Virus record (IMG/VR): IMGVR_UViG_3300025097_000011
Location: 1-47,293 of that record
DNA length: 47,293 nt
Strand: one strand, 5' to 3'
From: a virus
Shown: positions 14,567 to 31,550 of the stretch, piece by piece
How positions within the stretch are numbered: position 1 is the first letter of the stretch
Layout: each line of letters begins with the position of its first letter
Translations under genes and position numbers: made by a program
Notes under the pieces: generated by a model
What the model was told of the DNA's origin: nothing
The model's database searches: none
Seen by the model: the letters and a program-made list of their open reading frames with translations, nothing else

Positions 14567-14676
14567 CTCTCGTGTACATAAATAAATTATATGTCCCTGC
14601 GCCTATTTTTCTTTATCTGCGCCTATTTTTCTTTATCTCCATTTGTCTCTCGTGTACATAAATAAATTATATGTCC
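14567..14676. repeat. 30-bp direct repeat pair enclosing a 20-bp tandem repeat
   Basis: A perfect 30-bp repeat occupies 14567-14596 and 14647-14676. Between them a perfect 20-bp unit is repeated in tandem at 14598-14617 and 14618-14637. On the minus strand each 30-bp copy is followed closely by AATGGAGA; in the left copy this is the start of the 74-residue gene, so the start region of that gene seems to have been duplicated. There are too few copies and no equal spacers for a CRISPR. Confidence 0.85.
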
Positions 14677-19391: not shown

Positions 19392-19748
19392 TTATAACAC
19401 CCACAAACCCAAACGACGCAATATCCTGTTCGTTGTCTCACGATACTCTATGCTACACTCGTAGTCATTTAAGTGTTGATTGGTTACGTGAATGATACTG
19501 CTATGGTGTCTGTTTAATAAACTGCCAATCTTTGTTACCGTCATACGATAATGGTGTCTCAATATAAACGATATTATCTGCCTGCCATAACAACAGTCAC
19601 GCCAACGACGACGAGAGATTAATACCTCCGGGGCTAAATCAAAGTCCTTGCTTACTGAAGCTAATACTCTTTCAAATAAAATTCTTGGTTGTTTATGGCT
19701 GACCTTGAGGTGATTTAATCCCACATAGACATAAGGTGATATAAACAT
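19392..19748 (-). CDS. DnaA domain IV-only protein (DNA-binding, no ATPase)
   Basis: 118 residues from the ATG at 19748, which follows the TATATTTG box at 19764-19771; an upstream in-frame ATG lies before the box. The body reads SRRRWRDCCYGRQIISFIL, then TVTKIGSLLNRHHSSIIHVTN, matching DnaA domain IV: the (A)RQIxxxL helix and the signature IGxxLxRxHSTVxHA recognition region. There is no room for the AAA+ ATPase. It should bind DnaA-box-like DNA without oligomerising, so it could mark the phage origin, repress, or interfere with host DnaA. A second such protein is at 31215-31550. Confidence 0.75.
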   Translation of the reverse strand: MFISPYVYVGLNHLKVSHKQPRILFERVLASVSKDFDLAPEVLISRRRWRDCCYGRQIISFILRHHYRMTVTKIGSLLNRHHSSIIHVTNQHLNDYECSIEYRETTNRILRRLGLWVL

Positions 19749-19763
19749 AGTGTGTGTTTTAAA

Positions 19764-19771
19764 CAAATATA
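19764..19771 (-). promoter_or_regulatory. -7 box TATATTTG for the DnaA-domain-IV gene
   Basis: Minus-strand TATATTTG, 15 bases before the ATG at 19748. It decides the start codon, since the longer frame begins upstream of the box. Confidence 0.5.
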
Positions 19772-20005
19772 AGAAAACCATTGGACTTATTCAAATGATG
19801 TTGATGTTGCAAACGCCTCCCTACTCTCTAATTATTTATCTTTTCTTTTTATATGAACTTTTTATTTTTCAGCAAAGTGTTTAATTTATAACATTCCAAC
19901 ATTATTTAAGATAAACCATTAAAAGAGAAAGACTTATGAAAAAAACTAACAGCATTCTAGCGACACTACTGCAACATTCTAGGATGTTCTGCGACATATA
20001 TATAA
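19772..20005. promoter_or_regulatory. non-coding spacer with AACATT repeats and an imperfect palindrome
   Basis: AT-rich spacer between the DnaA-like gene and the terminator at 20006. AACATTCCAACATT occurs at 19890-19903. A 16-base imperfect palindrome, AACATTCTAGGATGTT at 19973-19988 (centre CTAG), is flanked on both sides by GCGACA. These resemble binding sites for a regulator or initiator. A 37-codon plus-strand frame at 19936 runs into the terminator and is not called. Confidence 0.5.
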
Positions 20006-20264: not shown

Positions 20265-20468
20265 TTATCCTTTATCATGCTTCATAATCATATCCGCAAC
20301 ACGGATACCATCAGCAATCTGATTAACTTTTTTCATGTCTTTAGCCATCCTCCTAGCTGAGGCCATACGACCTATGCCAATCTCTAACTCAGGCTGTTTT
20401 CTGAAGAGAGGATTCACAGCTTGGTTCCCGCTTACGTGTCCTCCCAATTTAGGTTTCTTCATTTTCAT
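20265..20468 (-). CDS. small basic protein (67 aa)
   Basis: 67 residues from the ATG at 20468, which overlaps the preceding stop as ATGA. N-terminus MKMKKPKLGGHVSGNQAVNP; the C-terminal half is an amphipathic helix rich in Met, Arg and Ala (GRMASARRMAKDMKKVNQIA). Unknown function; probably coupled in translation with the 48-residue gene before it. Confidence 0.6.
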   Translation of the reverse strand: MKMKKPKLGGHVSGNQAVNPLFRKQPELEIGIGRMASARRMAKDMKKVNQIADGIRVADMIMKHDKG

Positions 20469-20614: not shown

Positions 20615-20622
20615 CAAAGATA
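20615..20622 (-). promoter_or_regulatory. -7 box TATCTTTG 3 bases before the ATG at 20611
   Basis: Minus-strand TATCTTTG, then TAT, then ATG. It is the rightmost promoter of the leftward block, at the edge of the divergent region. Confidence 0.6.
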
Positions 20623-20796
20623 GCGAAATTTTTCTGTAATTTTTTTAGGACCCCCCCCAAAAATTTTTTTTCACACTACGAGATTGTGGGTAACCGCAGA
20701 CCTCACGCCTGGCCGCCGCCGGGGGAAAGCGCCTGGACCGGGCCGGATCTGGCGAGTTCGATTTCAATCCCTCCAAAGTTTTGACTTTTTGTTTGA

Positions 20797-20828
20797 GGGT
20801 GGGTGGGGGTGGGGGGTGTGGGCTAGGG
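20797..20828 (+). other. G-quadruplex-type motif 1
   Basis: The plus strand has successive G-runs of 3, 3, 5, 6, 3 and 3 separated mostly by single T. This exceeds the G3+N1-7 rule and the one-base loops predict a very stable quadruplex. Confidence 0.75.
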
Positions 20829-21069
20829 TTACCCCCAAGTACAAGGCGTTGGGGCTAGGCATACGCATCTCTATTGGTGTAAGGTATAGACGCACCCATG
20901 CCCACTAGGTGTGCCAGGGCATAAGACATTGAGGCTCAGTGCGTTATGCTATAACATCTCAATCATTACATTCACAACACGCACTCAACTTGCTCTATCA
21001 GATCAGGTTAACTCGGGCCCTAGGGAGGCGTACCCTAGTATGCACCCTACTAACCCCCATTCCTATGGA

Positions 21070-21088
21070 GGGGGAGGGAGGGGGAGGG
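21070..21088 (+). other. G-quadruplex-type motif 2
   Basis: G5-A-G3-A-G5-A-G3 on the plus strand, all loops a single A. The first G-run can alternatively pair with CCCCC at 21054-21058 as a hairpin, so the site may switch between forms. Confidence 0.8.
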
Positions 21089-21337
21089 TTATACCCCCAT
21101 GCCTAGCCGAGTATGATTAGGATTTCACGCATTGGGTTTACGCCTAAACAAGCTAGTTACTAACACGAGTGGGCGCAAGTGTTGACAACTAAATTACCTA
21201 CCTCAGCCTAGGTCTATAGCATAATTAGTTGGTAAGATGTATTACAACGTATTGTATTTATACCTATCTTTACCAACATGAACGAAGTACAAGACACATC
21301 ATATTTAAAATTCATTAATATAACTAAACTTAATACC

Positions 21338-21592
21338 ATGACAAAATTAAAAGCAATCAATCCTAAGAACCAAGCACTAGTCAACAAGGCTATCAATTGG
21401 TTAGTAAAGCACAACAATTACAACACCCAACGCGACCTCATAAGTGGCAATTTAGAATGTGAGGAGTATGAGAGTAAAGAGTGGAGGGCAATAGATAAGA
21501 AATGTGTTCATTCCTTTGATATGTACCTAGAGTACTTATATGACTTACCTAAAGGGCAACAAAAAGCAATTGAAAATTCTAACTTTTATTAA
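21338..21592 (+). CDS. small early protein (84 aa), unknown
   Basis: 84 residues from the ATG at 21338 (MTKLKAINPKNQALVNKAIN); the upstream in-frame ATG at 21278 would add 20 residues encoded by leader-like A/T sequence and is less likely. The protein is helical with WLVKHNNYNTQRDLI and a C-terminal SFDMYLEYLYDLPKGQQKAI. The latter pattern occurs in small unknown proteins of phages and plasmids. It is the first gene of the rightward early block. Confidence 0.6.
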   Translation: MTKLKAINPKNQALVNKAINWLVKHNNYNTQRDLISGNLECEEYESKEWRAIDKKCVHSFDMYLEYLYDLPKGQQKAIENSNFY

Positions 21593-22708: not shown

Positions 22709-22731
22709 CCTTAACACCACCTCCACCCCTA

Positions 22732-22761
22732 CCCCCATACCTAAGTCGGTTGGGGGTTTTT
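22732..22761 (+). terminator. terminator-like hairpin with T5
   Basis: CCCCCA (22732-22737) pairs with TGGGGG (22751-22756) around a 13-base loop and is followed by five T. It closes the GP88-like transcript. Confidence 0.7.
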
Positions 22762-22786
22762 GGGTAGGCACTATTGCCGATATAAA

Positions 22787-22798
22787 ACACTATAGAAA
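22787..22798 (+). promoter_or_regulatory. copy 2 of ACACTATAGAAA at a start codon
   Basis: The last A is the A of the start codon at 22798. The same word occurs at 24038-24049 in the same relation to an ATG. It could be a promoter core or a translation-start element. Confidence 0.55.
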
Positions 22799-23022
22799 TG
22801 ACGCATAAACAGATAATTGATTTAGCAAACGGAATGCCGATATTCCACCACAAGAGTGGAGAGAGTGAGGCACAAGCCAACTTGAGTTACGAGTTGGTAA
22901 TTGAGGAGGCTATGCCCAAGGTAGTTGCAACCAACAAGCCTAAGCATCTTACCCCTAGATTTTTCAGCCATGCCGAGATGCATGAGTTATTCTTTAATCC
23001 AATCATTGAAAAAACATTTTAA
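22798..23022 (+). CDS. small early protein (74 aa), unknown
   Basis: 74 residues, MTHKQIIDLANGMPIFHHKS then SEAQANLSYELVIEEAMPKV, no motif recognised. It is soluble and mixed alpha/beta. It follows a GC-rich hairpin spacer and the AACACTATAGAAATG start module, and is only 3 bases from the next gene, so the two form a unit. Confidence 0.6.
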   Translation: MTHKQIIDLANGMPIFHHKSGESEAQANLSYELVIEEAMPKVVATNKPKHLTPRFFSHAEMHELFFNPIIEKTF

Positions 23023-23949: not shown

Positions 23950-23972
23950 GCCTAACCCACCCCCATTAGATA

Positions 23973-24004
23973 CCCCATAGCTGACCTTGTCGGCATGGGG
24001 TTTG
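23973..24004 (+). terminator. hairpin CCCCAT/ATGGGG with short T-run
   Basis: CCCCAT at 23973-23978 pairs with ATGGGG at 23995-24000, followed by TTT. The T-run is weak. It is one of several similar GC-rich hairpins found only in the 22-26 kb spacers. Confidence 0.55.
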
Positions 24005-24037
24005 GTGGTGCTAGTCGGCTTTGGCTAGTGGACTTAA

Positions 24038-24049
24038 ACACTATAGAAA
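24038..24049 (+). promoter_or_regulatory. copy 3 of ACACTATAGAAA at a start codon
   Basis: Same word and same position relative to ATG as at 22787-22798; the identity extends to AAACACTATAGAAATGA. This supports the start at 24049. Confidence 0.55.
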
Positions 24050-24843
24050 TGAAAACATTTGATGAGATTAAAACTAAGAAAATACCCTACGATGCTAGTG
24101 GCATTGATAACCCTAGCAATTGGCTATGGTCGGACACCACCAAGTCCACCAATATTTTATGGACTGCACTCCACTACCCCAAAGTAAAGATAGTGAGCAA
24201 CCTCGAATTGGCTATGAATATTGAGGATGGAATTTACACCTTTGAGGTCACTTGCATATCTGCCATTAATAAGGATACTAAGGTCGCAGACTATGACACT
24301 TTCAACTGCGATTATAAGCCTCAAGAGTTTGCCGAGGGGGATGCCTTTGATTGGTTATGGAATGGCAATACTGAGGAGTGCCCACCCTATTGGGAGGAGG
24401 TAGAGCAATATATTGATAAGCAATATGTGGATGGCAAGTTCGACACCAAGCCTAATGACAAATATGTGAACACCCACCTCATAAACATGGTAGCCCTTGT
24501 GGATGAACTTGAGGGTGTTAACCTCATTGATTTGGAGAGGGATATGCCTAGCTTATATGAGCAATTTGTTAATGCTAAAGCCTACGCCACCATTTTGCTA
24601 AAGCGCACTTCACTTGTTCTATTATTTCCATTGCTATTTGCTAGTTGCCAACGTGACACCACCCCAATAATTAGTGATGCAGATTGGAAAGTAATGGAGG
24701 TACTGAATGACCTTGAGGATGCTAAGGAGTGGCTCATAAATGATATGGAGGTGGGGAGAATTGACTCCACTCATGGCTACGCCTACCTAAGAATATTGGA
24801 TGAGAGTATTGATAATTTAATTAGCTTACCTAAAACTAAATAA
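24049..24843 (+). CDS. unknown early protein with an internal lipoprotein-like segment
   Basis: 264 residues from the ATG at 24049, which carries the shared start module; an earlier frame start at 23995 lies in the hairpin spacer. The N-terminal 180 residues are soluble, with two similar stretches, NWLWSDT and FDWLWNGNT. Residues about 183-200 read LLKRTSLVLLFPLLFASC, a typical lipoprotein signal with lipobox, followed by a soluble helical domain of about 65 residues. In the middle of a protein this would not be a signal peptide. Either a lipoprotein gene starts internally (TTG at 24595) or two genes have fused. Confidence 0.55.
   Translation: MKTFDEIKTKKIPYDASGIDNPSNWLWSDTTKSTNILWTALHYPKVKIVSNLELAMNIEDGIYTFEVTCISAINKDTKVADYDTFNCDYKPQEFAEGDAFDWLWNGNTEECPPYWEEVEQYIDKQYVDGKFDTKPNDKYVNTHLINMVALVDELEGVNLIDLERDMPSLYEQFVNAKAYATILLKRTSLVLLFPLLFASCQRDTTPIISDADWKVMEVLNDLEDAKEWLINDMEVGRIDSTHGYAYLRILDESIDNLISLPKTK
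24595..24843 (+). CDS. possible nested lipoprotein (82 aa, TTG start)
   Basis: Reading from the TTG at 24595 gives (M)LKRTSLVLLFPLLFASCQR: two basic residues, a hydrophobic core and an FASC lipobox, then about 65 soluble residues. This fits a lipid-anchored envelope protein, for example a spanin or superinfection-exclusion type. It shares its frame and stop with the longer protein. No ATG is available and no promoter box was seen. Confidence 0.35.
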   Translation: MLKRTSLVLLFPLLFASCQRDTTPIISDADWKVMEVLNDLEDAKEWLINDMEVGRIDSTHGYAYLRILDESIDNLISLPKTK

Positions 24844-25343: not shown

Positions 25344-25373
25344 CAAGGGGTGCAACTTACACCCCCAAGCCTA

Positions 25374-25402
25374 CCCCATAGCCTTTCGAGGCATGGGGAT
25401 TT
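25374..25402 (+). terminator. hairpin with TTCG loop after the frameshifted gene
   Basis: CCCCATAGCCT, loop TTCG, AGGCATGGGG (10 bp with one bulged A), then ATTTGGG. The stable TTCG loop supports function; the T-run is short. Confidence 0.65.
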
Positions 25403-25450
25403 GGGCGTAGAGGGAGGCGAGATTGCCGACTGAGTTTAAAACCAAAAACC

Positions 25451-25612: not shown

Positions 25613-25730
25613 GCTAGTAAGAGATGGCAAGACCTATGGGTACTACCAAGGCGAAACCAAGTATGTGGCTTTGGCTCATGCGAGGTGGGAATTTGGATGG
25701 GCAAGCCTCCACCACCTCCGAAGATCCTAA
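25605..25730 (+). CDS. very small early protein (41 aa)
   Basis: 41 residues: MYRLVRDGKTYGYYQGETKY, then VALAHARWEFGWASLHHLRR. The N-terminal two strands followed by ALAHARWEFG look like a real folded mini-domain. It overlaps the preceding gene by 8 bases. The last 10 codons run into GC-rich spacer sequence, so the gene may have lost its original end. Confidence 0.45.
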   Translation: MYRLVRDGKTYGYYQGETKYVALAHARWEFGWASLHHLRRS

Positions 25731-25778
25731 AAACCGGGGTGGGTGCTGGGAATTGCCAAAACAAAATTACTAGGTTAT

Positions 25779-25826: not shown

Positions 25827-25858
25827 GAATTATTTACTTAACTAAACACTATACTATA

Positions 25859-31059: not shown

Positions 31060-31218
31060 ATGGCAAAAGAAAGAAGAAAGACCGATGAGAATGAGGTTAA
31101 GATTGTGACCAATGTCCATCCGTTATTTACACAAATGTTTGAGGTCTATATGCCTCAACCCACTATTCAAGAAGTGTCGGCTCTTGATGATGAGGAGAAA
31201 ACCCCAACCGAGAAGTGA
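31060..31218 (+). CDS. small protein upstream of DnaA-like gene (52 aa)
   Basis: 52 residues: MAKERRKTDENEVKIVTNVH, then PLFTQMFEVYMPQPTIQEVS and an acidic end. It starts a new transcript after the terminator at 31024, with an AT-rich leader. It is coupled to the DnaA-like gene by a GTGA overlap. It could be a replication accessory factor; this is inference. Confidence 0.6.
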   Translation: MAKERRKTDENEVKIVTNVHPLFTQMFEVYMPQPTIQEVSALDDEEKTPTEK

Positions 31219-31550
31219 ACCACAAGTTATTTTCAGCAATCGTAGAACTCGTAGGAGAGTTTACGCAGTTGGATGAAACTGAAATATTTAGTAAGTCTAG
31301 GAAGCAAACTCTAGTCGATGCTCGATATTTAATCATCTTTATATCCCGACAACTTGATATAAAATTGATTTACATTCAGCGATTTTTTAAACTTAAAGGA
31401 TTTAAGTTACATTACACTACTCTATTTCATGCCTCCAAGAGAATTGAGGCTGAGATCAAAGAGGATGAGTACATGAAAGAGATTGTGGATAGCATCCTCC
31501 TTCAGTTTGATCCTTCACGAGTAGTAAGCACAGAAGTTATTAATCAATAA
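31215..31550 (+). CDS. second DnaA-domain-IV-like protein
   Basis: 111 residues with a GTG start on the stop of the previous gene. SKSRKQTLVDARYLIIFISRQL, then FKLKGFKLHYTTLFHASKRI fits DnaA domain IV with the (A)R helix and a recognition segment, although the HSTV signature is altered to HYTTLFHA. No ATPase domain. It directly precedes the annealing-protein and exonuclease genes. It might bind the phage origin or the repeats near 33.5 kb. It is a separate gene from, and only distantly similar to, the one at 19392-19748. Confidence 0.55.
   Translation: MNHKLFSAIVELVGEFTQLDETEIFSKSRKQTLVDARYLIIFISRQLDIKLIYIQRFFKLKGFKLHYTTLFHASKRIEAEIKEDEYMKEIVDSILLQFDPSRVVSTEVINQ

Follow-up and report, generated by a model that had tools for sequence, protein, structure and literature searches.

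A conserved single-copy element at the late/early junction of Bacteroidota podoviruses is a candidate terminase cleavage site

What function, if any, resides in a long GC-rich gap between the two diverging gene blocks of a phage? The question was raised by positions 20623–21337 of the linear 47,293-bp IMG/VR record IMGVR_UViG_3300025097_000011, the whole of which was analyzed and is referred to here as the window. The window virus is a Bacteroidota podovirus, with PHROG family matches for terminase, portal, and primase; its other products include GroEL, GP88, a GroES-like protein, and two DnaA-domain-IV proteins. Both record termini fall within protein-coding sequence, away from the junction. 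To our knowledge, genome ends and packaging signals are not established for most environmental phages.

The gap is bounded on the left by a 67-aa gene (20265–20468, − strand), which starts the leftward block and is a conserved late-side neighbor of the junction, with homologs in the same junction-side place in contigs L081, L251, L257, L244, L273, L248, and L265 (E-values of 2e-6 to 1e-3). The first rightward (early) gene occupies 21338–21592 (+ strand; 21338 is a better start than 21278), and in L251 its homolog (E = 2.5e-11) likewise comes first among the early genes. No credible gene lies inside 20623–21337, and a search for tRNA and tmRNA found none. GC content was 47.1% across the gap vs. 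39.3% for the window, and the 500-bp interval at 20681 had the highest value (54.2%) of 4680 such intervals. The gap, its GC excess, and a run of eight C (20651–20658, + strand, outside the model match described below) were all as originally described, but the claimed excess of hairpins was not: over 20640–21270 hairpin density was no better than in dinucleotide shuffles on either strand (fold z-scores of −0.60 for + strand RNA, −0.35 for − strand RNA, and −1.68 for single-stranded DNA), and the inverted repeats are short or imperfect. The original prediction was thus right that something unusual lies at this junction and wrong to give hairpins as the reason.

The same hairpin style had been reported to recur in spacers at 22.7, 23.97, and 25.4 kb. 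The hairpins there are real, but because they beat shuffles (z-scores of −2.1 to −3.6, + strand) and similar-looking junction stretches have z-scores of about 0, the two are separate things. These early-operon intergenic hairpins, with C-rich and G-rich arms, were observed at 22713–22800, 23950–24040, 25350–25430, and 25700–25770, and may be terminators or processing sites. Two early genes share an identical repeat of 16–17 nt, AAACACTATAGAAATGA, located right at their start codons (22785–22801 and 24036–24052), with a variant, AACACTATACTATAATG, near 25845; it looks like a promoter or start signal. Elsewhere, a low-GC intergenic stretch at 14567–14676 contains a ~30-bp direct repeat, CTCTCGTGTACATAAATAAATTATATGTCC, in copies 80 bp apart with a shorter repeat between them.

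Named phages searched with the window nucleotide sequence gave no match, so relatives were reached via protein alignments; IMG/VR searched with GroEL as a single protein also returned nothing, and alignments were needed. Sequence upstream of the GroEL gene was then fetched as the locus of each relative. In most relatives the late/early divergent junction is found immediately past GroEL, ranks with the largest non-coding stretches, and often has the GC maximum. The nearest named record was MW202828 (67% identity in terminase and 53% in primase), with remoter isolates comprising Elemovirus, Cellulophaga phages (phi18:3, phi38:1, and Calle), Maribacter phage Panino, and Tenacibaculum phage Gundel_1. 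Contigs of the phage lineage also occurred inside MAGs labeled Aliivibrio and Woesearchaeota (L281, L282, L284, and L286); the Aliivibrio-labeled bin holds at least five copies of the junction element described next, and these placements are therefore likely binning errors.

The element is a conserved stretch of ~127 bp, present in single copy at the late/early divergent junction of about 70 IMG/VR contigs, of MW202828, and of isolate phages of Cellulophaga and Flavobacterium. Its blocks are, in order, TTAGATA; GG..ATA, in many members a dyad; GGAAACGA and then T8; a G or C run; and GATTTTTTGGCTTTTT. The GGAAA block (block D) and the TTTTTGGC block (block F) are separated by 52–55 nt in relatives. 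The homopolymer run (block E) is common, not universal; most relatives have a G-run, and L244, L202, L273, and MW202828 have a C-run in its stead, as though the strand were immaterial. Whole-genome searches recovered the element from 28 of 30 records, essentially once each. This non-coding element of Bacteroidota podoviruses is present in cultured phages as well: matches in the Callevirus isolates phi38:1 and Calle_2 and in elemoE and elemoA (Elemovirus) had E-values of 2e-7 to 6e-7, and those in phi18:3 and phi19:3 were weaker. The Callevirus and Elemovirus matches are single-copy and cover blocks C–F, whereas the upstream blocks A–B were not matched; in phi38:1 and elemo their orientation with respect to the early genes is the same.

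The window itself carries a diverged copy at 20674–20790 (+ strand), recognized by a model built without the window (R1) at 20.2 bits (E = 1.5e-5), the next best match scoring 6.7 bits (E = 0.24). An nhmmer HMM, also trained without the window, matched 20660–20794 at 23.6 bits (E = 4.7e-5 over all loci), vs. a maximum of 10.1 bits in 2000 shuffles of the window's own region. The copy is single, lies in the divergent junction, and has the right orientation. In alignments, block D reads GGGGGAAAGCG (20721–20731, + strand; family GGAAACGA) and is followed after about 54 nt by block F, TTTTGACTTTTTG (20779–20791, + strand; family TTTTTGGCTTTTT), while block B is the dyad GGT-A-ACC (20689–20695, unstranded), 31–32 nt before block D. 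The window lacks the G-run or C-run of block E and has GGACCGGGCCGGATC there; the run is absent also in L197, L223, and L258.

A hidden gene was rejected, as most members carry stop codons in every one of the six frames. Genes annotated over the GC-rich junction of MW202828 (UOF82531–UOF82533; L075 42896–43803) were not called by a codon-usage caller and are probably spurious. A structured early non-coding RNA, another of the original suggestions, would suit a GC-rich region with short inverted repeats, but we consider it very unlikely: RNAalifold, applied to a 32-sequence alignment, found no consensus pairing for either strand, Rfam searches gave no match, folding showed no signal above shuffles, and no promoter was found to transcribe the element core. 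With stops in all frames and without conserved base pairs, the element acts as DNA, not as a gene or RNA structure.

Beyond the element lies a GC-rich spacer (20791–21110, unstranded). Its GC richness recurs among relatives, 21 of 33 loci having the corresponding 150 bp within their top 1% for GC, but its sequence and the strand bias seen in the window do not. Spacer sequence is hypervariable between relatives and often low-complexity, and the G-rich orientation is peculiar to the window, with skew above 0.2 in 1 of the 33 loci and below −0.2 in 21. The spacer region also contains the only canonical G-quadruplex motifs of the window (20797–20822 and 21070–21088, both + strand); a G-quadruplex function was rejected, as the two motifs are particular to the window and most relatives are C-rich on that strand. 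We give almost no credence to the idea that the junction is neutral GC-rich junk, a foreign insertion, or an assembly artifact. The hypervariable spacer speaks for it, but the GC-rich spacer recurs at the same place and dozens of independent assemblies, plus several isolates, share the conserved core; this conservation refutes the neutral reading for the core, though it may still hold for the spacer.

The role that we favor for the element, and regard as probable if only modestly so, is that of a terminase cleavage or genome-terminus site situated between divergent promoters. A packaging element was among the original suggestions, and it gains support from relatives through a predicted terminal repeat, the starts of contigs, and an enrichment of contig ends. 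The repeat is that of Gundel_1 (Pachyviridae), a distant relative of the window virus (34% in TerL), in which a short direct terminal repeat is annotated at 1–322 and 78512–78833; it is a PhageTerm prediction that was not experimentally verified (PMC8776804). As with the element, the Gundel_1 repeat sits between leftward and rightward genes, at the divergent junction. A model of blocks D–F built without Gundel_1 (R2), searched against 68.8 kb of that genome, had its best match at 30–100, inside the 322-bp predicted repeat, ungapped over 71 nt and in the expected orientation, and the repeat start falls 31 nt before block D. The match is weak (E = 0.032), R1 barely detects it (0.4 bits), pairwise alignment of Gundel_1 with phi18:3 and phi19:3 was not significant (p = 0.33 for phi18:3), and, unlike that of the window, the Gundel_1 spacer is not GC-rich. 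Two metagenomic contigs, G011 and G002, start 32 and 42 nt before block D, respectively, and run toward early genes; they are the only two cases of such precise starts.

Contig ends within 700 bp of the element on its early side numbered 13 of 70, vs. 1.7 expected (about eightfold), though ends in a GC-rich, low-complexity spacer may be assembly breaks and their positions vary from inside the element to +633 bp. On the late side there were 4 of 70, also vs. 1.7 expected. None of ~33 early-side contigs starts in the spacer, an asymmetry to be expected if block B is the left genome end and the right one lies a few hundred bases on; the selection of these contigs by primase, several kilobases away, limits this comparison. 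Against a terminus, the record ends of Panino lie in its junction, yet the model rejected a match at the record end, where the element had been seen by eye. Contig G045 was rejected as a repeat pair because its other end lies in coding sequence.

On the terminus reading, terminase would recognize the conserved blocks of the ~127-bp element and cut the concatemer at the dyad in block B. The cut would then fall at about 20692/20693 of the window, the center of GGT-A-ACC, a position that we infer from the Gundel_1 repeat start and the G011 start, both 31–32 nt before block D. The linear virion genome would start at this cut, and a short terminal repeat, of presumed existence and length, would carry the element and the GC-rich spacer and continue into the early genes. 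Early genes would then be read inward from one end and the late block inward from the repeat at the other, with leftward- and rightward-facing promoters flanking the element. T7-type and N4-type podoviruses have short terminal repeats and early genes reading in from one end, and the layout proposed here is alike in both respects. It differs in that the late genes of the window virus would read inward from the other end, and no phage RNA polymerase was recognized among the window-virus genes scanned. A terminus at this place would explain why assemblies of these phages tend to break at the junction.

The flanking promoters could themselves account for the junction if the element were purely a transcription switch, with operator or activator sites between leftward late and rightward early promoters. 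A pattern scan found a leftward −7 box of the Bacteroidota TAnnTTTG type, TATCTTTG, at 20615–20622 (− strand), and a weak rightward −7-like box with one mismatch, TATCTTTA, is present in the sequence at 21265–21272 (+ strand). In most relatives, such boxes occur on both sides of the element: 22 of 31 have leftward-pointing CAAAnnTA or AAAAnnTA within 60 bp to its left (background 0.13), and 23 of 31 have rightward-pointing TAnnTTTG on its right side (background 0.36 per 500 bp). The blocks also resemble protein-binding sites rather than RNA. A core of ~127 bp, with two T-rich blocks kept strictly 52–55 nt apart, and its coincidence with a predicted physical end in Gundel_1 are nevertheless more than two promoters need, and we judge a switch with no other role distinctly unlikely. 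Promoter and end functions may coexist in one element.

A replication origin, also suggested originally, is in our view unlikely, if somewhat less so than a pure switch. Initiators, perhaps the phage DnaA-domain-IV proteins, would bind the conserved blocks, a flanking AT-rich stretch would open, and forks would leave both ways along the divergent operons. The element is suitably single-copy, position-conserved, non-coding, and intergenic, AT-rich stretches adjoin GC-rich ones, and cumulative GC skew turns near 21–23 kb; this turn coincides with the change in gene direction and is therefore confounded. The two DnaA-domain-IV proteins consist of the DNA-binding domain only (Bac_DnaA_C), one encoded beside the junction (19392–19781, − strand) and the other at 31215–31550 (+ strand). 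DnaA-box-like sites are hardly enriched (5 vs. 3.1 expected), and in the window they are scattered, with no initiator-box cluster; a DnaA-box origin was rejected for want of clear site enrichment. Contigs that start at block B would be left unexplained by an origin, which could coexist with a genome-end function.

A close parallel to the window junction is that of MW202828 (Manatee Spring podovirus), together with those of the IMG/VR relatives. MW202828 has the element (E = 2e-13), an identical order of flanking genes in which GroEL is on the late side, and a GC-rich spacer that is the GC maximum of its genome (63 vs. 39%). Its spacer is CG/CA repeat-like, unlike the G-rich window spacer with its G-quadruplex motifs, and protein identity to the window virus is 53–67%. 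In the literature searched, which lacks most subscription papers, we found no description of the element or of a terminus for this lineage, and the genome ends of Calle were not determined (PMC8776804). We offer as a tentative generalization, more speculative than the cleavage site itself, that a large, widespread lineage of Bacteroidota podoviruses may use one compact DNA element whose conservation spans family-level divergence. It would unite a terminase cleavage site with two divergent promoters and with a GC-rich, low-complexity spacer selected for composition and not sequence. A sequence model that matches once per genome across the lineage would supply hundreds of metagenomic phages with a physical start point open to testing.

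To the right of the element, after the GC-rich spacer, many relatives (L178, L252, L200, L185, L228, L181, L272, and L261) have another conserved hairpin, GTGTC-TTCAAA-GACAC, with compensated stem changes in L261 (GTCCG-TTCAAA-CGGAC) and L181; contigs G075 and G177 end 25–30 nt past it.
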